A DNA stretch of 64,000 nucleotides, from positions 1 through 64,000 of the forward strand of contig JAJZUT010000012.1 in the NCBI GenBank assembly GCA_021847105.1, read 5' to 3'. Within the stretch, counting starts at the first letter, position 1; each line of letters opens with the position of its first letter. Source of the stretch: Pseudomonadota bacterium. GTDB taxonomy: Bacteria; Pseudomonadota; Gammaproteobacteria; Steroidobacterales; Steroidobacteraceae. The notes under the pieces were generated by a model, which was not told where the DNA came from, ran no database searches, and saw only the letters and a program-made list of their open reading frames with translations. Both the position numbers and the translations under genes were made by a program. This document shows positions 5,006 to 18,070 of this stretch, piece by piece.

Positions 5006-6475
5006 GGTTCCTCTGAGGCGACACGGTCTTCCGGGTAATCCACAGTGCGGCAGCCGACCGACGGCCGGGCGGCTGCAGGCGGCCTGGCCAAGCGGTCGGG
5101 CGAGCGTAGCGAGCGCCTGTGGACCCATGAGGGCAACCCCGTCGAGGTGGCACGATGCGTCCTTTGCTGCGGTAGGATTTCGGTTCACAGCAAACGGATA
5201 GGTCGGAATGGTCACTGAGAAAATCTTCGAGACGGCCCTCGGCATCAGCAGTCCCTGTTTCATCGCCGGGATGAACTTCGATCCAAACCAGAGGAAGCTC
5301 AATATCCATGTCGATTTCGAGGTCGGCAGCCGCTTTGCGGTGCCGGGGCAGGCAGGTATGCATCCGGTGCACGACACGGTCACCAAGACTTACCGGCACC
5401 TGAACTTCTTCCAGCACGAGTGCGAACTCGAGGTGCGCCTTCCGCGGGTGAAGCTGCCCGACGGCAAGGTCATGCAGATCACCCCGCCCTGGAGAGGCAA
5501 GCTCTCCGGGTTCACGCTACTGTTTGAGGCTTTCGTGCTGCTGCTGGCCCGAGAGACGACCTTCACCGGAGCGGCGCGCATCAGCGGGCTGTCGATCCAC
5601 CGGGTGATGAGCCTGTGCGAGCGCTACGTGGACGAGGCGGTCAGCACCGCGGACTTCAGCGAGGTACACCGGCTGGCGATCGATGAGACCTCCCGTGCCA
5701 AGGGCCACGATTACGTCAGCCTCTTTGCCGATGCCGACCCCGATCCCGAGCGCCGTCGAGTACTGTTCGTCGCCGAGGGCCGAGAGGCCGATACAGTGGG
5801 CGCCTTTGCCCCCAACCTGTGCGCCCATGGCGGCAAGCCCACCGAGATCGCCTCGATCAGCATCGACATGTCCCCGGCGTTCATCAAGGGTGTCCAGGAA
5901 CACTTTCCCAAGGCCCAGATCACCTTCGACAAGTTTCATGTGATCGCCCATGCCTCTGAGGCGATCACCACGATGCGTCGTGAGGAACAGCAGCGCGATC
6001 CGAGCCTCAAGGGGCTGCGCTGGGTGCTGTTGAAAGACCGCAGCAAGCTCACCCACGCCCAGCGCGCCGAACTCGACGGCTTGCTTTCGCGCATGACCAC
6101 CACCCGCACCGCTCGTGCCTGGCACTATCGCGAACAGCTGCGCGACATCCTCACCCGCAAGCAGCCCACCGTCGTCGCCCGGCTCCTGAACGCCTGGTGC
6201 ACCAACGTGCTGCGCTCCAAAGTCGAGCCGATGAAGAAGGTGGCCGAGATGATCCGCAGTCATTTCGACGGCATCCTCGCCTGGGTGCATTCTCGCCAGA
6301 CCAACGGCTTCCTGGAAGCCATCAACGGGTTGTTCCAGGCTGCCAAGCGCAGGGCGCGCGGATACGTCCGCTTCAAAACAATCCGCACCGTCATCTTCAT
6401 GATCGCAGGCAAGCTCGACTTCTCCAGAATCAACCCCTACGTCGCAGCGTAGCCCACTCGCTTTTCAATAGAACC
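5006..6475 (+). mobile_element. ISL3-family insertion sequence
   Basis: The transposase gene at 5208-6452 defines the element. The outer limits are tentative: GGTTCCTCTGAGG at 5006 and the reverse complement of the sequence ending at 6475 (GGTTCTATTGAA) agree at about 8 of 12 positions. No 8-bp target duplication is obvious. About 200 bases of leader lie between the left end and the transposase. The right end sits only 12 bases from IS630 copy A. Confidence 0.55.
5208..6452 (+). CDS. ISL3-family transposase
   Basis: A 414-residue DDE transposase, full length for the ISL3 family and apparently intact. The catalytic residues appear in LAIDETSRAKG (first Asp), SIDMSPAFIKG (second Asp) and NGFLEAINGLFQ (Glu). 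The central GITFDKFHVIAHA-like segment, seen here as ITFDKFHVIAHA, is a family hallmark. An N-terminal HTH-like region precedes the catalytic core (TTFTGAARISGLSIHRVM). Nothing suggests cargo. It is the only copy of this element in the window. Confidence 0.93.
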   Translation: MVTEKIFETALGISSPCFIAGMNFDPNQRKLNIHVDFEVGSRFAVPGQAGMHPVHDTVTKTYRHLNFFQHECELEVRLPRVKLPDGKVMQITPPWRGKLSGFTLLFEAFVLLLARETTFTGAARISGLSIHRVMSLCERYVDEAVSTADFSEVHRLAIDETSRAKGHDYVSLFADADPDPERRRVLFVAEGREADTVGAFAPNLCAHGGKPTEIASISIDMSPAFIKGVQEHFPKAQITFDKFHVIAHASEAITTMRREEQQRDPSLKGLRWVLLKDRSKLTHAQRAELDGLLSRMTTTRTARAWHYREQLRDILTRKQPTVVARLLNAWCTNVLRSKVEPMKKVAEMIRSHFDGILAWVHSRQTNGFLEAINGLFQAAKRRARGYVRFKTIRTVIFMIAGKLDFSRINPYVAA

Positions 6476-6517
6476 CAAAAAATCCATTATTGAGTATTGC
6501 GTAAGTACGTGACCCGC

Positions 6518-7053
6518 TCAAAACATCTCCGTCTGTTTCCAGAATGCGGTCACGAGCGTGGCGCGTCGCTGCATCGAGCGCAGGTTCCTGCGAGTGCGCT
6601 GGGCGAGATCGGTGAAGTTCGTGGCGCAGTAGTTGGGCATGGCGTGATGCTTGAGGTAACCCCAGATGCATTCGACGGGGTTCATTTCCGGTGCGTACGC
6701 CGGCAGACGCTCGAGCACGATGCGGCCACGTTGGGCCTCCACATGGGCGCGCACGAGCTTCGAGCGGTGGACCTGCAGGCCGTCCCAGATGATCAGCAAC
6801 TTCTTGCCGATCGTCGTCTGCAGGGCCTTGAGGAATTCGACGATCTGTGGACTTTTGATCGAGCCGTTGAACAGGCGAAAGTAGAAGCGCCAGTAGCTGA
6901 TCCCGGCAATCACCGACAGCTGCTTCCAGCTGAAGCGGTACTGCAGGACCGGCGTTTCACCCTTCAGAGCCCAGGTTCTCGCGCGACAAGGTCTCTCGGA
7001 CAGACCCGACTCGTCTATGAAGACGATTACTCGGCCTTGTCGCGCAGCGATTT
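6518..7053 (-). CDS. IS630 transposase, C-terminal frame (exon 2), downstream of group II intron
   Basis: This is the DDE catalytic part of the transposase: VFIDESGLS (first Asp), LLIIWDGLQVHRS (second Asp) and PEMNPVECIWGYLKH (Glu). It has no start of its own. In copy B the same protein is reached from the upstream frame by a -1 shift on a run of seven A. Here the upstream frame is separated by the intron. The full transposase therefore needs intron splicing followed by frameshifting. No stop codon interrupts the catalytic section. Confidence 0.85.
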
Positions 7054-7168
7054 GGTGGGTAGAGACGAGCCTTGAACCGGTAGCCTTTACGGAGCCAGGC
7101 TGGGGCTGCGGCTTTCGCCGCAGTGCCCCCTCCGAGCCGGCCTGGGCCCTTGAACTCGTCTCCCCGCG

Positions 7169-7203
7169 CAGAACCCGGCGTGCGGATTTCCCGCACCGGG
7201 CTC
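7169..7203 (-). ncRNA. Group II intron domain V
   Basis: Read on the minus strand from 7203, the sequence starts GAGCCCGGTGCGG, has a GAAA tetraloop, and closes with CCGCACGCCGGGTTC. It is a hairpin of the conserved length with the catalytic AGC triad at its base. This is the most conserved ribozyme element and lies between the maturase stop and the intron 3' end, as expected. Confidence 0.9.
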
Positions 7204-7229
7204 CCACAGATGTTCGCCAAGTAAGCATT

Positions 7230-8525
7230 CTAGACCATCGGATGCGCGACTCGCGCGTACGGCAGGTCGAACCACGTGCAGCGCCGCAGGTAGGCCCAGG
7301 TGATCCGGGAGCGTTGGCTGCGATGGATGAGCGTGCGCCGCCACTGAAGCAGTACCTGGTCGCGCACCCAACGCAGTTTCGGCGTCGAGTGCGGAATGGC
7401 GAAGTACTGATTGAAGCCGCGCAGCATGATGCTCAGCCGCCGCCGTTGGTCCCCGGTCCTCCAATGCATATTCCTGCGAAGCCATTCCCCCGTGCGAGCC
7501 AGGAACTTCGTGCAGCTCTTGACGCTGGGAATCCGAACAAGGGCAAAGCGCCCCTTCCGGTCTCTCCCGCAAACGTGCGTGAAGCCCAGAAACTCGAACG
7601 TCTCTGGGCGGCGCCCACGCTTGCCAGCTGCCTCCGCAGCAAAGCGGCCGAACTGCAGTAGCCGTGTCTTCTCCTCGGCCAGCTCCAGGTCAAATCGTTG
7701 CAGCCTATCCTGCAGCTGCCAGCGAAAAGCATCTGCGTCGTGCCAGTGCTGGAAACTCACCACGAAATCATGGACAAACCGTACCAGATGCGCCTCCCCT
7801 CGACACCGCGGTCGAATCTTCTTCTCGAACCACAGGTCCAGGGAGTAATGCAGGTAGATGTTGGCCAACACACAAGATATCGGACCACCTTGCGGCGTCC
7901 CTGCTCCCGTGTACATGACAACTCCGTCTTGCATGGCGCCAGCGTTGAGCCATTTGCTGATGAGACCCAGGATCACTGGGTCAGCAATGCGCTCAGCCAC
8001 CATCCGGCGAAGCCATTGATGATTGACGCGAGTGAAGTATCCGCGGATATCCGCCTCGTATACGTAGGCCACCTTCTTCGCCAGCACGTGCGTTCGCACA
8101 GCTTGCAGCGTTTGGTGTGGATTACGTCCGGGACGATACCCGTAACTGCCGTCGCAGAAGTCCGCTTCGAACACAGCCTCCAGCAGACGCGCTACCGCTC
8201 TCTGAAGCAGCCGGTCTTCGACCGTGGGGATGCCCAGCGGCCTCGTTCCGACCTTGCCGGGTCCTTTGGGAATATCAACCCGTCGGACCGGCGGAGCGCG
8301 GTATGCGCCCGCCTTGAGCCGTGCGACGATCGCCTGACATCGTTGTTCCAGCTCTCGTTCAAACTGCTGAGTACTTTCCCCATCAATCCCACTTGCCCCA
8401 CGCCGGTTCAGCTGTCTCCAGGTCTCCTGAAGAAGCCCCGGCGTGAGCAGGTGGGCCAACGAGGTGAATCGCACCTTTCGGTCACACTGTGCCTTCTTGG
8501 CGATCTGAGCCAGTTGTGTGGACAT
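7230..8525 (-). CDS. ltrA: Group II intron reverse transcriptase/maturase (catalytic motif altered)
   Basis: A 431-residue intron-encoded protein. RT motifs in order are ASGIDGESTQQF, RPLGIPTVEDRLLQ, YEADIRGYF (first catalytic Asp), GTPQGGPISCVLAN, RFVHDFVVSF, and LGFTHVCG, followed by a maturase (X) domain with RRRLSIMLRGFNQYFAIP. No endonuclease domain follows. The fifth RT motif is normally YADD; here codons 250-253 read FVHD, with His252 (bases 7770-7772, CAT) replacing a metal-binding Asp (GAT). This should abolish reverse transcription but could leave splicing activity. The start at MSTQLAQIA (8525) has GGAGAC upstream. Confidence 0.93.
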   Translation of the reverse strand: MSTQLAQIAKKAQCDRKVRFTSLAHLLTPGLLQETWRQLNRRGASGIDGESTQQFERELEQRCQAIVARLKAGAYRAPPVRRVDIPKGPGKVGTRPLGIPTVEDRLLQRAVARLLEAVFEADFCDGSYGYRPGRNPHQTLQAVRTHVLAKKVAYVYEADIRGYFTRVNHQWLRRMVAERIADPVILGLISKWLNAGAMQDGVVMYTGAGTPQGGPISCVLANIYLHYSLDLWFEKKIRPRCRGEAHLVRFVHDFVVSFQHWHDADAFRWQLQDRLQRFDLELAEEKTRLLQFGRFAAEAAGKRGRRPETFEFLGFTHVCGRDRKGRFALVRIPSVKSCTKFLARTGEWLRRNMHWRTGDQRRRLSIMLRGFNQYFAIPHSTPKLRWVRDQVLLQWRRTLIHRSQRSRITWAYLRRCTWFDLPYARVAHPMV

Positions 8526-9031
8526 CGAATCTCGTCTCCGCGTGTACGAGGAATGTTTCCCCAGCTCAGCTCCCATCTGCCTCGCCCCTTCCCCCTGTAC
8601 GCGGCTTTCCCGCGCTCCGAGTACTATGAGCGAGCCCGACTTCCACCCGTGCTTTTGTCTTACTCAGGGCTCAGGCCCTTTCGCTCGACATACTCGATCC
8701 CGTGATCAAGGCAAGAATGGATCTCTCAGGTTCCTGCCGCTTCCATCTCCGGACGTGCCGTGCTCTCAGACCCCGCCGCAGTCTCCGGCTCCCTCGCCGA
8801 TGTCGGGAACCTACGATCGCCTTCCAGAATAAAAACCCTGTCGGCCTGCGGATGTACCTCTCACGAGGCTCGATCACTTCACTTGCGTTACGGCCCATCC
8901 GTCGCTCTGTCTACGCTTAACTCACGTCGTTACCTCCGTAAGCCCAAGACTCGATTCCCGGTGAGGCGGCTTCACCTCTTTCCGGGGCAGGAATTTCACC
9001 TGCTGGAAGCGTCAGTCTTACCCTGACGCAC

Positions 9032-9493
9032 TTTTAAGGCGGGCCACCTCTTGGCTTTCCAGGCGCGGATCGCCGGTTCGTCGCGCTCTCGCGCCTGGCC
9101 GCTCGGCCGCTGCACGCTCCAGCCGAGGCGCCCGAGCAGCCGCCATACTGAGGAGGGCACCATCGAGGCCGAGAACCTGTCCTCGATCAATCGTGCAATC
9201 CTCGGCAGTGTCCACAGCTCCGTCGCAAAGCCGGCGGCCTGCGACCCTGCCTTCAGCAACCGCACCAGCTCCTCGCGCTGCGATTCGGACAGCCGCTCTG
9301 GGCGCCCGAAGTGCTCCGCTCGACGCAGCGCCTCCAGTCCACCTTGCTGGCGCAGCCTCTCCCAGCGCATCACTGTCTGGCGTGAGACTCCCACCTGCCG
9401 TGCGACCTCCGCTTGCGGGTGCCCCGCAGCCAGCAGCCTCGCCCCGCGTCGTCGGCGTCGCTCCAGCTCCTTGCGCTTCTCTGAATGCTTCAT
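9032..9493 (-). CDS. IS630 transposase, N-terminal frame (exon 1), upstream of group II intron
   Basis: This encodes the N-terminal helix-turn-helix region of the transposase: GARLLAAGHPQAEVARQVG and SRQTVMRWERLRQQ are a clear HTH of the IS630 type. The start is taken at MKHSEKRKEL (9493), with GGGG a few bases upstream. The coding sequence is cut after ...WPALK by the intron 5' end (GTGCG) at 9031. If the intron is not spliced, translation runs 11 codons into it and stops. If it is spliced, the A4 end of this exon joins the AAA of exon 2 and the slippery heptamer is restored. Confidence 0.85.
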
Positions 9494-9574
9494 CAGTACC
9501 CCGAATGTAACCATTCCGGGTGCTTGGACCGCAAGAAGCGCAAAAAGTGTCACTCACTTAAGCATTTCTCAATA

Positions 9575-9684: not shown

Positions 9685-9714
9685 TATTGAGTCTTGCGTA
9701 AGTACGTGACCATA

Positions 9715-10712
9715 TCAAAACATCTCCGCCTGTTTCCAGAATGCGGTCACGAGCGTGGCACGTCGCTGCATCGAGCGCAGGTTCCTGCGAGCGCGCTGGG
9801 CGAGATCGGTGAAGTTCGTGGCGCAGTAGTTGGGCAGGGCGTGATGCTTGAGGTAACCCCAGATGCATTCGACGGGGTTCATTTCCGGGGCGTAAGCCGG
9901 CAAACGCTCAAGCACGATGCGGCCACGCTGGGCCTCCACATGGGCGCGCACGAGCTTGGAGCGGTGGGCCTGCAGACCGTCCCATATGATCAGCAGCTTC
10001 TTGCCGATCGTCCTCTGCAGGGCTATGAGAAATTCGACGATCTGGGGGCTCTTGATCGAGCCATTGAACAGACGAAAGTAGAATCGCCAGTAGCTGATCC
10101 CGGCAATCACCGACAGCTGCTTCCAGCTGAAGCGGTACTGCAGGACCGGCGTTTCACCCTTCGGAGCCCAGGTTCTCGCGCGACACGGTCTCTCGGACAG
10201 ACCCGACTCGTCTATGAAGACGATTACTCGGCCTTGTCGCGCAGCGATTTTTTTAAGGCGGGCCACCTCTTGGCCTTCCAGGTGCGGATCGCCCGCTCGT
10301 CGCGCTCGCGGGCCTGGCCGCTCGGCCGCTGCACGCTCCAGCCGAGCCGCCCGAGCAGCCGCCACACTGAAGATGACACCATCGAGACCGAGAATCTCTC
10401 CTCGATCAATCGCGCAATCCGCGGCAGCGTCCACATCTCCGTCGCAAATCCGCCCGCCAGCGACCCTGCCTTCAGCAACCGCACCAGCTCCTCGCGCTGC
10501 GATTCGGACAGCCGCTCCGGGCGCCCGAAGTGCTCGGCACGACGCAGCGCCTCCAGTCCGCCTTGCTGTCGCAGCCTCTCCCAGCGCATTACCGTCTGGC
10601 GTGAGACGCCCACCTGCCGTGCGACCTCGGCCTGGGGTTGCCCCGCAGCCAGCAGCCTCGCCCCGCGTCGTCGGCGTCGCTCCAGCTCCTTGCGTTTCTC
10701 TGAGTGCTTCAT
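9715..10712 (-). CDS. IS630-family transposase made by -1 programmed frameshift
   Basis: Frame 1 starts MKHSEKRKEL at 10712, encodes the HTH domain and would end shortly after ...WPALKK. Frame 2 gives the DDE domain (VFIDESGLS, LLIIWDGLQAHRS, NPVECIWGYLK). The frames overlap at TTA AAA AAA TCG on the minus strand, a correctly phased A-AAA-AAA heptamer at 10248-10254. A slip of one base backward continues as ...LKK-IAARQGRV into frame 2. The fused product is about 332 residues, a normal length for IS630 transposases, several of which use -1 frameshifting. No inactivating change is visible. Confidence 0.88.
10248..10254 (-). promoter_or_regulatory. A-AAA-AAA slippery heptamer for -1 frameshifting
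   Basis: Seven A on the minus strand, phased X-XXY-YYZ relative to frame 1 (the A of TTA, then AAA, AAA). Slippage by one base joins the HTH frame to the DDE frame. I could not confirm a downstream pseudoknot or an upstream Shine-Dalgarno stimulator by eye. Confidence 0.8.
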
Positions 10713-10820
10713 CAGTACCCCGAATGTAACCATTCCGGGTACTTGGACCGCAAGCAGCGTAAAAAGTGTCACTCACTTACGCATTTCTCAATAATTGACT
10801 CACAACTAGAGCACCGATGT

Positions 10821-11676: not shown

Positions 11677-12618
11677 CTAATTCCGCAAGCCAGCTCGATG
11701 TTTCAGGAACCACCCATAGGTCTGCCTGATCCCATCCGACAATTCAATGCGCGAAGACCAGCCGAGATTGGCCAGTCTTGAGGTGTCGAGCAATTTCCGT
11801 GGCGTACCGTCCGGCTTTGACGGGTCAAGACGTATGGCCCCAGAGAATCCGACGACCGCCGAGATCGCCTGCGCCAGCGCATGGATGGTCAAATCCGATC
11901 CCGAGCCGACGTTGATCCAGATTTCTTCATCGTAGCGCGCCATCAAGAAAAGGCTCGCCTCCGCCAGATCATCGACGTACAAGAACTCTCTCCGAGGCGT
12001 CCCCGTTCCCCAGAGCTCTACCTCGGCGTCACCATGCTCCTTCGCTTCATGGAATTTACGAATAAGAGCGGGCAGCACATGCGAGGACCGCAGGTTGAAA
12101 TTGTCCCCAGGTCCATACAAGTTAGTCGGCATCGCCGAGATCGCATTAAAGCCATATTGTCGACGGTAGGCCTGACACATCTTAAGCCCCGCAATCTTGG
12201 CAACGGCATACCACTCGTTGGTCGGCTCAAGAGAGCCCGTCAACAAGCACTCTTCCCGCATCGGCTGGGAAGCGTGCTTCGGATAGATACAACTCGATCC
12301 CAAAAACAGCAGTTTGCGCGTTCCATTGCGGTATGCCGCATCAATCACGTTGGTCTGAATAGCAAGATTGTCCCGGAGGAACTCTGCTGGTTGAGTGTCG
12401 TTAGCGAGAATGCCTCCCACCTTGGCAGCAGCCAGGAAGACATAGTCCGGGCGGTACTCAGAAAAGAAATCTTCCACATCCGCCTGTCGCGTCAGATCCA
12501 GCTCCGCATGAGTACGCAGCAGCAGATTCGCAAATCCCTCTGCCTGCAGCCGCCGAACAATGGCCGACCCAACCATTCCCCGGTGTCCAGCAACATAGAT
12601 TAGCGACTCTCGCTTCAT
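11677..12618 (-). CDS. fcl: GDP-L-fucose synthase
   Basis: A 313-residue SDR-type epimerase/reductase that turns GDP-4-keto-6-deoxymannose into GDP-L-fucose with NADPH. The nucleotide-binding motif is [10 protein letters not shown] near the N-terminus. The catalytic set is Ser in LGSSCIYP and Tyr/Lys in [21 protein letters not shown] is a family signature. The start [11 protein letters not shown] at 12618 overlaps the end of gmd by four bases, so the two are translationally coupled; an upstream ATG at 12633 is also possible. The pair supplies fucose for a surface polysaccharide. Confidence 0.95.
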
Positions 12619-13703
12619 TCCCGGTACCGGCATGTCTTGAATCCCTCTTTCGCCAGAGACGCATCCCTACGAGCCAACTCCAAATCGGCAGCAACCATAT
12701 CAGTCACGAGGGAGTCAAAAGTCACCTCCGGTTTCCAGCCGAGTTTCACGCGGGCTTTACTCGGATCCCCGAGAAGCGTGTCAACTTCGGTTGGGCGGAA
12801 ATATCGCGGATCGACCTTGACGAGAATTCTTCCGCTATCAGCCTCCACGCCCTGCTCACTGACGCCGCTGCCTCGCCATTCGAGGCGGATCCCCAGTACC
12901 GCCGCAGCGCGAGTCACAAACTCCCGCACGGAGTGTTGCTCTCCTGTAGCGATGACGTAGTCATCAGCTTCAGCCTGCTGCAGCATGAGCCACTGGGCAC
13001 GCACATAGTCGCGCGCATGACCCCAGTCACGCAGCGAATCGAGGTTTCCCAGGTAGAGGCACTCATCCATTCCGTGGCGGATGCGCGCGAGACCGCGAGT
13101 GATCTTGCGCGTAACGAAGGTTTCGCCTCTAACTGGAGATTCATGGTTAAAGAGGATGCCGCTGCAGGCGAAAAGTCCGTAGGCCTCTCGGTAATTGACG
13201 GTGATCCAGTGACCGTATACCTTGGCCGCTCCATACGGTGAGCGCGGATAAAATGGAGTCGTCTCCTTCTGCGGGATTTCCATCACCTTGCCGAACATCT
13301 CCGAAGTCGACGCTTGATAGAAGCGCGTCTTTTTCTCCAGCCCCAAGATGCGAATAGCCTCCAGAAGTCTTAGTGTACCGAGTGCGTCGGAATTCGCCGT
13401 GTACTCGGGCGTCTCGAAAGAGACAGCAACGTGGCTCTGTGCCGCGAGGTTATAAATCTCATCTGGCTTTACCTCCTGCACAATCCGAATCAAGTTCGTG
13501 GCATCAGTTAGATCTCCATAATGCAGATGCAGTTGCACATTTCTATCATGAGGATCCTGATAAAGATGATCTATCCTGTCGGTATTGAAGGATGATGCGC
13601 GGCGCTTGATGCCATGCACTTCATAACCCTTGGCCAGTAGGAATTCCGCCAAATACGAGCCATCCTGGCCGGTAATTCCCGTGATTAGCGCTCTTCGCTG
13701 CAT
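12615..13703 (-). CDS. gmd: GDP-mannose 4,6-dehydratase
   Basis: A 362-residue enzyme catalysing the first step from GDP-mannose to GDP-fucose or GDP-rhamnose. Visible features are [14 protein letters not shown] (NADP site), [11 protein letters not shown] (catalytic Thr/Ser) and [14 protein letters not shown] (Tyr and Lys), plus [18 protein letters not shown], a strong family signature. The start MQRRALITG at 13703 is preferred; the frame opens at 13718. It sits directly upstream of fcl. No manA/manC genes are in the window, so GDP-mannose must be supplied from elsewhere. Confidence 0.96.
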
Positions 13704-13787
13704 GTCACATACACTCACTTCTTCTGGTATTCAATAACGATTGCCTACAATTCGGACGCGGCAAGTTCGCCTTTTCCGTCACAAGTG

Positions 13788-16766
13788 TTACAGCGCATGT
13801 ACCGCCGCAGCAGCGATAGCGACGTTGTACAGAATTCCGGTGACCGCCTGCCAAAACGGCAATGGCAACATCTTCTCTGCATTGATGGGTACGACGATGG
13901 TATCTCCCGGCCTGATCTGTGTACCGCCGTGACTAAACCAGAAGCTGCTGTGGCCTGCGGCCACGACGCTTCCGTCCGCTCGAACCACATAGATATGTTC
14001 CGCATCTGCCTCGGAGGTAAGGCCCCCGCTCAAGCGGATGTAGCTGCTGCGCGACAGCCGCGGGTTGTACAGGTGTGACGTCGGATCCTGTACTTCGCCG
14101 ATGACTGTCACCTCCTGTTCGAACTTCGGAACGTACAGAGCATCACCGTTGCGCAGAACGACGTCGTAGTGCGAATTCTCAGGTCTCTTCAGGATTTTCG
14201 GCAAGTTGATGACCAATCGCCCCACTGCATGCTCTGTCCGAAGTTCCTGCAGAAGCGATTTGGCCACGATCATGGTATTCGCGGCGGCACCCGGGGCGCC
14301 GCCCGTGGCAGTCACGCTCGCACGCAGCGCCAGCACGCCGAGCTCGATGCGCATGCGCTGAGCCAGAAGGCTCATCTCGTGCTGCTCGCGGCGCTGAAGC
14401 TCGGTGCGCGTGAATACCGCTCCTTCTGGGAAAGCCCACGGCGTAAGACCTCCCGCTCGCTCGATGACTGATTTGAGCGTTTCCCCCGGTCGGATGGTGT
14501 ATGTGCCGGGGAATCGGACCTGCCCATGCAGCGTCACTGTCGCCGCTCGCGCCCACTGCGAGACCTCTTCGACATTGATCACATCGAACGGCTTGAGCGC
14601 TAAATTGGACTTGGGATTACCTGCTAGTGCCTGCGCCAGATTGATGTGATAGATACGCGTCTGACGAACACCGTCTGCAGCAACGACGTAACGCGTCAGC
14701 TCCGCCCCACCCGTGTAGGCCGAATTGGACAGCCCTCCGCCCGCTCGTATCAGGTCCGCCACCCGCATACCAGGTTCCAGGGGGTATTTCCCCGGAACAT
14801 TGACCTGCCCGGCGATAGCGACGGACTGCTCGGGATGCTCGGCGCTGGATTCCGCCTGCAGAGCGTGCAGAATGGGCTCGATGATCCGCTCACGGCTCGA
14901 AGTCAGATTGAACACCGTGATTTCATCCCGCGGCATCAGGCGAATGTTCGCCGCGGAATTCGGGTGCGCCAGGGCCTGCGCTAGATTGGCCGACACCGCC
15001 TCGACGTGCAGATCGGGAAGCAGCTTGCGGCGGATCAGCACGTAGTGCAGATCCGAGTTCGGCTTCAACTCAGAAACGGATCGCAGAACGTCCGTCAAGC
15101 GCATACCGGGCTCGTACGCGTATATACCCGGGTTGTACACGTTGCCCTGGAGGGTCACGGCCTCATCCAGCGCCGGTTTCAAGCGTGGGACATGGATATA
15201 ATCCCCGTTGCGAAGCCCTTCGGCGACGCCGCCTGTGCCCAATTTCAACGGCAGCACAACTCGGGCGCCGCTCGGCAATATTCGCATCACGGTCGCATCT
15301 GCGACATCAGCATTTGGCTTCAGACCACCCGCCAAAGCCGCGATCTGCGCCGGAGTCGTCTCGTTCTTGATTTCATAAATGGCGGGTCGCTGCACTTCGC
15401 CATCGATAGACACCGTCTGGCCTACCGGCGGAACGAACACGACGTCGCCCTGCAATAGCGGCGCATCGTGTCGGGTACTGCCGTGGATCAGCAGGTTGTA
15501 GAGGTCGAGCGTGTCAATTACCTGGCCGTCGCGGATCAGCTGTACTTTGCGCAGCGAGCCAGTTCTGCTGATGCCGCCTGCGGCATAGAGCGCAGAAGTC
15601 ATCGTTGCCAGACCGCTCACGGTATACACCCCAGGCCGGAACGCGTCCCCCATGACGAAGACCTGAATGGAGCGTGTCTGCGCCATGCTGACGCTGGCGT
15701 GCACCCCGATCATCTGATGCGCAACTCGGGAAGCGATCTCGGACTGCACCGCACTGAAGAGTTGGCCTGCCACGCTGATGGGTCCAAGCTGTGGGAAGTT
15801 GATTTCCCCGTTGCGACCCACTGTGAGCTGGTAACCCTCGTTCTGATTCCCGTAGAGCTGAACATCAATGACATCGCCGGGCCCGACCTGGTAATTCGAG
15901 GGCACAGGCACGTTGCTCAGCGGGTTCATGGTCAGAAAGGTAGATGCCTCCTGCTGAAACACATCGTAACCGAAGGGACGCAATGCCTGCTCGCCGGTCT
16001 TCTCCAGCGGTAACAGCGTCACGCGCACTTGAAGGTTTTGCAACGCAGGCATCACGGACAGACGCAACGTCGCGTCGGCAGGCGTCAGACCAAGGAGTGC
16101 GATCGGGGCAAATCCGGGCAGATCGAGCATCCCGTTGGGGGTCAGCTGATAGGGATTGTGCTCTCGGATCGCGCGCATCATGTCGTTGATGCGATCCTTC
16201 TCGAGGGGACTCAACGCCGCCAGATCCGGCGGAATCTGCTGTACTTCGGCAGTCGGCAATCCATTGGTGCTGAGAGGAATGTCCGCGATCAACGGAATTC
16301 TTGGCGTCATGCCCGCGGCACCGCTTTGCAACCCACCGTACGGCAGATTTTGCGCTGCGCCGCCGCTCGTAGCCTGTAGCGCGGTCGGCTGCGTCATCGA
16401 GGTCGAGGACGGGGGCAGCTGAACGCCAATCTGCACGATGACCCAATCTCCGCCCTGCAGCTCGGGCATGACCGATTTTTCTTTCAAGGCCTCCCGCTGC
16501 GCCTGCACCGCCTGCTGCTGCTCGAGCTGTTGCAGCTCAGACTGAGTCATCATCCCCGGGGTCTGCAACAGAGTGCCGCCGAGTGCCGATCCGCCGCCGA
16601 GACGACTCATGATGGCCTGCTGCTGTGGTGACGACAGACTGTGCAGCAAAGCCAGACCAGTTGCGGAATTCAAGGCCGACTGGGCTGAGGCAGCCGCGCA
16701 GAATCCCATTCCCACGATAATCAGCAATGGGCCGACGAGTGGCCCCAGACGTCGCAGCAAGCGCAT
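13788..16766 (-). CDS. Very large polysaccharide export protein with multiple SLBB domains
   Basis: A 992-residue Wza-type outer-membrane export protein. A signal peptide covers about residues 1-29, ending AAASAQ; there is no proper lipobox, unlike Wza. Next comes a low-complexity Gln/Ser-rich region, then the Poly_export domain (about 288-370, with YQVGPGDVIDVQLYG) and a run of SLBB domains containing GEVQRPAIYEI, GNVYNPGIYAYEPG, GQVNVPGKYPLEPG, GQVRFPGTYTIRPG and GEVQDPTSHLY. Wza has about 380 residues, so this is a long-form homologue. The start at 16766 is the first with a signal peptide; the frame opens further upstream inside another gene. No Wzc-like kinase is adjacent. Confidence 0.9.
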   Translation of the reverse strand: MRLLRRLGPLVGPLLIIVGMGFCAAASAQSALNSATGLALLHSLSSPQQQAIMSRLGGGSALGGTLLQTPGMMTQSELQQLEQQQAVQAQREALKEKSVMPELQGGDWVIVQIGVQLPPSSTSMTQPTALQATSGGAAQNLPYGGLQSGAAGMTPRIPLIADIPLSTNGLPTAEVQQIPPDLAALSPLEKDRINDMMRAIREHNPYQLTPNGMLDLPGFAPIALLGLTPADATLRLSVMPALQNLQVRVTLLPLEKTGEQALRPFGYDVFQQEASTFLTMNPLSNVPVPSNYQVGPGDVIDVQLYGNQNEGYQLTVGRNGEINFPQLGPISVAGQLFSAVQSEIASRVAHQMIGVHASVSMAQTRSIQVFVMGDAFRPGVYTVSGLATMTSALYAAGGISRTGSLRKVQLIRDGQVIDTLDLYNLLIHGSTRHDAPLLQGDVVFVPPVGQTVSIDGEVQRPAIYEIKNETTPAQIAALAGGLKPNADVADATVMRILPSGARVVLPLKLGTGGVAEGLRNGDYIHVPRLKPALDEAVTLQGNVYNPGIYAYEPGMRLTDVLRSVSELKPNSDLHYVLIRRKLLPDLHVEAVSANLAQALAHPNSAANIRLMPRDEITVFNLTSSRERIIEPILHALQAESSAEHPEQSVAIAGQVNVPGKYPLEPGMRVADLIRAGGGLSNSAYTGGAELTRYVVAADGVRQTRIYHINLAQALAGNPKSNLALKPFDVINVEEVSQWARAATVTLHGQVRFPGTYTIRPGETLKSVIERAGGLTPWAFPEGAVFTRTELQRREQHEMSLLAQRMRIELGVLALRASVTATGGAPGAAANTMIVAKSLLQELRTEHAVGRLVINLPKILKRPENSHYDVVLRNGDALYVPKFEQEVTVIGEVQDPTSHLYNPRLSRSSYIRLSGGLTSEADAEHIYVVRADGSVVAAGHSSFWFSHGGTQIRPGDTIVVPINAEKMLPLPFWQAVTGILYNVAIAAAAVHAL

Positions 16767-16957
16767 CAAATACCCTTTTTTCGCCAGTGCAGAACAACGC
16801 ACGGCCGGCCCCCCGGTTGTCCGCCGGAATCCCGGTACATAAAATTTCCCGGTCCCGCCATGCTGAAGGGCCGATTGTAGCCGGGGATCGCGTGCGCGGG
16901 GAGCCGAATCGCCCGCGCACACCGAGTGGCATTCGTCGTGCCGGACTGCGCGGTGCG

Positions 16958-18070
16958 CTAGCGTATCGATTGCAAGCGCTCGGCAACCGCCTGTGCAATG
17001 GCCAGTGCCGCGGTGAGCCCTGGAGATTCGATGCCGTAAAGACTGATCAGGCCCGGCACGCCATGGTGTTGCGGTCCGTGAATGAGGAAATCGGCACTCG
17101 GGGCACCCGGACCGGCGAGCTTCGGTCGAATCCCCGCGTAGGCCGGCGACAAGGAGCGGTCTGGCAGGGCCGGCCAGTAGCGCCGAATCGAGGCATAAAA
17201 CGGCTCGGCACGCTGCGGATCGACCGTGTAGTCGATCCGCTCGATCCATTCGACATCCGGTCCGAAGCGCGCCCGACCTGACAGATCGAGCGTCAGGTGC
17301 ACGCCCAGCCCGCCCGGCTCGGGCAGCGGATACACGAGGTGCGAAAACGGGGACCCGCCGTGCAGAGTGAAGTAATTTCCCTTGGCGTAATGCAGCGGCG
17401 GGATGCAGCCCTGCGGCACCCCCAAGCGACGGGCCACGTCCTGGGCATTCAAGCCGGCGCAATTGACGACGATGTCAGCGGCGAGCGTCATCGGCTGCGC
17501 CTCCGAGCCGGCCTCGAGCACCAGACATCGCTCATCCCGCCGGCCGGCAATCACTGGCGTGCGGCACACGAGCGCCCCGCCCGCCCGCTCGATGTCCGCC
17601 ATCAGCGACAGCATCAGCCCGTGGCTGTCGATGATGCCCGTGGAGGGAGAAAGGAGTGCGGCCACACAGCGCAACGCCGGCTCGAACGTGCCGGCTTCGC
17701 CGGGTTCGAGCCAACGCAGCTCTCCGACACCGTTGCGGCGGGCGGTGGCCTCGATCGCCCGTAGCTGGGGAATCTGTGCCGCGTCCGTCGCGACCACGAG
17801 TTTCCCGCAGCGGCGATGCTGAACGCCGTGCTCGGCACAATACGCATAGAGCCGCCGCCGCCCCTCGAGGCAGAGCTGTGCCTTGGCCGAACCCGGCGGA
17901 TAATAAATCCCGGCGTGGATCACTTCACTGCTGCGCGCACTGATGCCGGTGCCCATCGCCTCTGCGGCCTCGAGCACAAGCACCTCGCGGCCCGATTGGG
18001 CCATGGCCCGGGCGACCGCAAGACCGACGACACCGGCGCCGATCACCACACAGTCCACTCGTTCAGCCAT
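16958..18070 (-). CDS. FAD-dependent oxidoreductase, L-2-hydroxyglutarate dehydrogenase-like
   Basis: A 370-residue DAO-family flavoprotein. The FAD motif is VIGAGVVGLAVARAM right at the N-terminus; SARSSEVIHAGIYYPPGS and LHYAKGNYFTL are typical of the LhgO/YgaF group, which oxidises L-2-hydroxyglutarate and passes electrons to the quinone pool. The start is MAERVDCVV at 18070. It lies 86 bases downstream of rfbB on the same strand and may be cotranscribed with the rhamnose genes, though no metabolic link is apparent. A different 2-hydroxy acid substrate cannot be excluded. Confidence 0.82.
   Translation of the reverse strand: MAERVDCVVIGAGVVGLAVARAMAQSGREVLVLEAAEAMGTGISARSSEVIHAGIYYPPGSAKAQLCLEGRRRLYAYCAEHGVQHRRCGKLVVATDAAQIPQLRAIEATARRNGVGELRWLEPGEAGTFEPALRCVAALLSPSTGIIDSHGLMLSLMADIERAGGALVCRTPVIAGRRDERCLVLEAGSEAQPMTLAADIVVNCAGLNAQDVARRLGVPQGCIPPLHYAKGNYFTLHGGSPFSHLVYPLPEPGGLGVHLTLDLSGRARFGPDVEWIERIDYTVDPQRAEPFYASIRRYWPALPDRSLSPAYAGIRPKLAGPGAPSADFLIHGPQHHGVPGLISLYGIESPGLTAALAIAQAVAERLQSIR

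Follow-up and report, generated by a model that had tools for sequence, protein, structure and literature searches.

The window analysed here, a stretch of 64,000 nucleotides, carries two copies of an IS630-family element on the minus strand. Copy A (positions 6490-9572) contains a group II intron, while copy B (9687-10791) has no intron and is 1,105 bp long. When the intron is subtracted, copy A also measures 1,105 bp, and the two copies are 93-95% identical, i.e. they diverge by 5-7%, on either side of the intron. Both ends of both copies were read: the inverted ends match and each copy is bordered by TA on both sides (6488-6489 and 9573-9574 in the case of copy A), so that the inverted terminal repeats and the TA insertion site of IS630 elements are present in both. 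The fusion product of copy B matches the IS630 transposase profile NF033545 with 220.9 bits (cutoff 100), and Pfam assigns to it the DDE_3 (PF13358) and HTH_33 (PF13592) domains, the DDE_3 and HTH combination of the family.

An ISL3-family transposase gene (DDE_Tnp_ISL3, 5208-6452, plus strand) adjoins copy A at a distance of ca 40 bp, and three IS elements therefore lie side by side. The IS cluster is adjoined by a polysaccharide export region (11677-17462, minus strand) encoding a GDP-mannose 4,6-dehydratase, an epimerase and a large SLBB/Poly_export protein. Terminal parts of the IS630 element present as copies A and B also occur at contig ends, namely at 1-113 of the window (the start of contig C15), at C15:115903-116015 and at C38:1-114, and because of this it is probable that further copies exist in the genome beyond these two and have been collapsed by the assembler.

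The transposase gene of copy A is divided by the intron into two exons. The 5' exon (9032-9493, minus strand, ATG at 9493) encodes the HTH-bearing OrfA in frame 0, and the 3' exon (6518-7053, minus strand) encodes the DDE domain in frame -1, as judged from the reading frame and from dN/dS values, with 177 amino acids after the shift. On the minus strand, copy A reads GCCCGCCTTAAAA up to the 5' boundary of the intron, which begins with GTGCGTCAGGG and ends with CTCTACCCACC, and continues with AAATCGCTG in the 3' exon. A run of seven A is thereby divided into four (9032-9035, the 3' end of the 5' exon and part of IBS1) and three (7051-7053, the start of the 3' exon). In copy B, where OrfA starts with the ATG at 10712, the corresponding A_AAA_AAA heptamer, GCCTTAAAAAAATCG, is intact at 10248-10254 (minus strand). 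An earlier note on this DNA had described both situations, the 1,978-bp intron splitting seven A four to three and the uninterrupted heptamer of copy B in the phase required for a -1 shift, and both descriptions hold to the base (positions 7051-9035 include the seven A). Removal of the intron at its ends rebuilds A7 exactly at the sequence level, as the note had also proposed.

Relative to the ATG frame, the phase of the heptamer is identical in spliced copy A and in copy B (xxA AAA AAA). Across the run, OrfA reads TTA AAA AAA TCG and stops after 162 codons, while the DDE part is open for 177 codons in frame -1; for copy A, splicing without a shift would thus give an OrfA of 162 amino acids ending at the TAA at 7029-7027. 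The reading frames of the two copy A exons are open, without a surplus of amino-acid changes. Within the window, which has 66% GC, there are only two unbroken runs of seven A or seven T, and the heptamer offers only 6 of the roughly 1,100 positions available in the IS (estimated post hoc). That the intron hit the heptamer is more than chance.

The codon-level constraint was evaluated for all pairs of four copies, i.e. copies A and B and two copies from genome G052. Upstream of the run (ORF1), dN/dS is 0.05-0.18 in frame 0, and downstream of it (ORF2) 0.03-0.13 in frame -1, while both parts give values above 1 when read in the alternative frames. For the pair of copies A and B, the values are 0.12 for the 5' exon in frame 0 and 0.13 for the 3' exon in frame -1. 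A sequencing error as the origin of the frame change can be dismissed, as the codon-level constraint switches frame at the run. Since the constraint moves from frame 0 to frame -1 at this point, the frame change is a selected property. The IS630 identity and the -1 organisation put forward in the earlier note are thus supported by the profiles and by the frame constraint, and the slippery heptamer stands in X_XXY_YYZ phase between two constrained frames, as in a programmed -1 cassette.

A candidate stimulator is the Shine-Dalgarno-like GAGGTG at 9045-9050 (minus strand), 9 nt before the first A. It is identical in copies A and B and in the near relatives, and it doubles as coding sequence for transposase residues. 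Downstream of the run, folding against shuffled sequences gave unremarkable z values of -1.2 to -1.8, and no convincing frameshift structure was found there by this approach. In E. coli, A_AAA_AAA is less shifty than A_AAA_AAG (PMC5009743). From the sequence features, we infer a ribosomal -1 shift at the heptamer.

Members of this IS without the heptamer, which the earlier note had named as a finding that would speak against its reading, were looked for, and the near relatives keep A7. The run is unbroken in copy B and likewise in each of the five relatives with 92-94% identity whose sequence includes the site (G052 and G023 contribute two each, G035 one); these are copies or part-copies, and the two from G052 are the ones that also serve in the dN/dS comparison. 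A7 is retained even in the second G023 copy (L096), whose OrfA contains a stop and whose OrfB frame is broken. In G006 (86% identity), AAAACG replaces A7, but this copy, as aligned, falls 25 bp short and has a disrupted OrfA frame; it was rejected as evidence against the heptamer and is best treated as decayed. Among more distant IS630 elements with split frames, an A run is located at the homologous codons in Caballeronia (A8), ISDra3 of Deinococcus (A9), Rhodococcus (A7) and Leptospira (A8), and a Streptomyces element has the shorter AAAAGG, also with split frames. In a Paraburkholderia homologue (L114, 568-1578), A6 occupies the position of A7 and the two parts are fused in one frame, a natural allele that needs no shift.

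We now consider the intron itself, which comprises 1,978 bp (7054-9031, minus strand), with the 5' end GTGCG and the 3' end CTACCCACC; the boundaries are based on Rfam and on the ends common to its relatives. Part of domain I is covered by a match to RF02005 (132.6 bits, gathering score 49). The RF00029 alignment of domains V and VI ends exactly at 7054, with a score of 38.6 bits, just below the gathering score of 40. Domain V, GAGCCCGGTGCGGGAAATCCGCACGCCGGGTTC, is placed at 7170-7204 (minus strand) by folding and by the same alignment, and domain VI, about 109 nt, at 7057-7165 (minus strand) by folding. The branch-point A of domain VI is bulged and lies at 7060, 7 nt short of the 3' terminus. 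The GUGYG 5' end, domain V and a domain VI whose bulged A is separated from the 3' terminus by 7-8 nt, which characterise group II introns, are therefore all present. While domain VI usually has about 35 nt, it carries here an extra branched hairpin, whose terminal part is common to the relatives.

EBS1 (TTTTA, 8830-8834, minus strand; intron nt 198-202) lies in a domain I hairpin loop, according to the RF02005 alignment, and pairs with IBS1, TAAAA, at 9036-9032. Across 10 introns this is the best-covarying position, with 41 of 45 cells pairing with the last five exon bases, and swapping exons among the introns reduces the pairing score (permutation z of 3.7 for 5 nt). The EBS1-IBS1 pairing of a group II intron, covarying among relatives, is thus found as well. 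The exact division into four and three A is explained by the T of TAAAA, because it sets the register of the pairing, and the insertion is best understood as a fit of this intron's EBS1 to this site, not as a taste for A runs. For EBS2 and EBS3, no convincing covarying site was found when domain I was compared with the exons among the intron relatives. The intron is present as a single copy in this assembly, and no close copy was found in plasmid DNA. As far as the modelled RNA parts are open to checking, the ribozyme looks intact, and we infer that splicing takes place in vivo.

The intron encodes a full-length reverse transcriptase/maturase of 448 amino acids (7230-8576, minus strand), which scores 327 bits against TIGR04416 (cutoff 300), as expected for a group II intron protein. 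RVT_1 is its sole Pfam match, and no endonuclease domain was found. The catalytic motif, at residues 267-270, is FVHD (D269H) in place of FxDD, a feature that the earlier note had overlooked. In 48 of 50 related segments the active site has DD, the remaining two being disrupted. The YxDD site of a mobile group II intron is thus missing, and since the motif reads FVHD we do not call the intron mobile: the reverse transcriptase of this copy is probably dead and the intron immobile by itself. The maturase departs 19 times from columns that are invariant in its five nearest relatives, compared to 0-11 times for each relative, a count in which branch lengths differ among the proteins. The pN/pS values are slightly higher for pairs that include it (0.30-0.34) than for other pairs (0.23-0.31), and it is perhaps under weaker constraint. 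Judging from these substitutions, its help in splicing may be weakened too; equally, it may still support splicing.

Related introns with 72-80% DNA identity and the same ends were found at seven loci (L009, L010, L023, L024, L025, L028 and L045). The other members of this intron lineage are inserted at TTACG, CTATG, CTTTG, CTTTA, CGTCG, ATATG and ACACA, where their own EBS1 fits 4-5 of the 5 positions. Unlike the window intron, the introns of the seven loci never lie in an A run, and where that part of the protein is present, their active site is FADD or FVDD, as opposed to FVHD. The earlier note had suggested that the homopolymer reflects a target-site preference. This idea can be discarded on the basis of the insertion sites of nine relatives, which lie at other sequences with matching EBS1, together with a pattern search of 396 genomes in which only the window matched and no second insertion in an A run was found. 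The intron of G519 (L120) is located at a contig end, and its 5' exon was left out of the insertion-site test. Of the interpretation given in that note, the intron, the IS630 element, the slippery heptamer and the -1 organisation stand, while the homopolymer preference falls.

For the most part, the relatives have mobile elements as hosts. In L023, L024 and L028 the insertion follows the conserved codons LHY of a reverse-transcriptase gene that belongs to another group II intron, and the exon joins keep the host frame in all three. The host of L025, which is cut at that point, is probably also such a gene, judging from the adjacent bases. These four are best read as nested introns that reuse one site. 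L009, L010 and L045 appear from their translations to sit in transposase-like genes, database matches not having been used for this assignment.

On the basis of these observations, we propose that copy A belongs to an IS630 subgroup that would fuse the HTH-bearing OrfA to the DDE-bearing OrfB by a -1 shift at an A run. An endonuclease-less group II intron, with its EBS1 TTTTA placed on TAAAA, would have entered between the fourth and the fifth A. In unspliced RNA, frame 0 is closed by a TGA at 8996-8998 (minus strand), starting at intron nt 34, and such RNA would yield only an OrfA-like HTH protein of 165 amino acids with an intron-coded tail, the tail being the only difference between this predicted product and normal OrfA. 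Splicing would rejoin AAAA and AAA, and ribosomes slipping by -1 on A_AAA_AAA would then make the full transposase. The transposase of copy A would thus depend on two successive steps at the RNA level, of which the latter uses a site absent from the DNA, and we regard this course of splicing followed by a ribosomal shift on the rebuilt A7 as fairly likely. As the DNA holds A4 and A3 apart, only ribosomal slippage could serve copy A. As its reverse transcriptase is probably dead, the intron would now travel only with its host IS. It is plausible that splicing gates the transposition of copy A, a predicted effect. By analogy to IS3-type elements, OrfA alone would act as a repressor. A more elaborate version, in which the intron is a regulated switch upstream of recoding, would have the splicing level set the amount of slippery mRNA, with unspliced RNA as a continuing source of the HTH-only protein, the position being kept because it tilts the balance from transposase to repressor; this we find quite improbable.

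The same anatomy could have a different outcome. Copy A may in effect be knocked out, with an intron that fitted its EBS1 to the site, splices rarely or never and does not act as a gate in any meaningful sense; its coinciding with the heptamer would then have no function. This has nearly even chances, and the confidence placed in it overlaps with that in splicing followed by a ribosomal shift. It would agree with the loss of the reverse-transcriptase active site, the 19 unusual changes in the maturase, the single copy in the genome, the missing second A-run insertion among 396 genomes, and the precedent of RmInt1 in ISRm2011-2, which ligates <1% of its exons in vivo (PMC4238363). It fits less well with the apparently intact ribozyme parts and with open exons that show no excess of amino-acid changes, although a recent insertion would explain the latter too. 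A trivial origin, namely that the assembler joined the intron to the wrong IS copy, could be imagined as copies at contig ends elsewhere indicate that the assembly struggles with this repeat. However, both junctions are exact to the base, the boundaries agree with those of independent introns, and EBS1 fits precisely the site occupied here. The two copies also diverge by 5-7% on either flank of the intron. Together, this makes such an artefact exceedingly improbable.

Another option is that the frame is changed by RNA polymerase slipping on the A run and not by ribosomes, a distinction missing from the earlier note. The transposase of copy A would then be abolished even with perfect splicing. 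IS elements with A8-A9, Deinococcus ones included, have been assigned to transcriptional slippage (PMC1088944), ISDra3 has nine A (PMC11219805), and A8-A9 homologues at this very position were seen here. On the other hand, seven A are fewer than the eight to nine regarded as productive (PMC1088944), and the exact A_AAA_AAA phase with GAGGTG 9 nt upstream argues for ribosomes. We consider polymerase slippage rather unlikely.

Frameshifting in IS630 elements has been noted before (PMC5009743). ISDra3-type elements resemble copies A and B in that an A run at the homologous position links an HTH part and a DDE part lying in different frames. Their runs, however, are A8-A9 and have been attributed to transcriptional slippage (PMC1088944, PMC11219805), while here the run is A7 and is interrupted by the intron in copy A. 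Which of the two processes operates is a question open for many IS elements with A runs, and copy A separates them. Because its slippery run is absent from the DNA and arises only by splicing, it constitutes a natural test of the slippage mechanism; should these elements rely on slippage by the polymerase, which has been proposed for A8-A9 runs (PMC1088944), copy A is dead.

The closest known system is RmInt1 in ISRm2011-2 of Sinorhizobium meliloti, a group II intron in an IS630-family transposase gene that has been proposed to restrain the spread of its host IS (PMC4238363, PMC5894124). Like the window intron, RmInt1 has no endonuclease domain and lies inside an IS630 transposase gene, such that splicing is needed for the transposase. 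With <1% ligation, it resembles a block more than a gate that could be tuned. RmInt1 is mobile, whereas the window intron has lost its reverse-transcriptase site. The positions also differ. RmInt1 follows TTCATCGATGAGA and lies just past the FIDE codons, at the motif of the first catalytic Asp (published IBS, PMC3123198; site in L112), in a one-frame stretch without an A run, while the window intron is located inside the frameshift heptamer, about 40 nt further upstream. That a group II intron can gate an IS630 element is hence already known from RmInt1; new are the position and splicing as a precondition for recoding. In the literature, with most subscription papers out of reach, we found no report of a group II intron that divides a frameshift site. 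The arrangement, seen in one copy, is real and makes the mechanistic question testable. For the second time, an endonuclease-less group II intron is found to have invaded an IS630 transposase gene, near to, yet distinct from, the position of RmInt1, and here splicing and ribosomal frameshifting would both act on one stretch of seven nucleotides.
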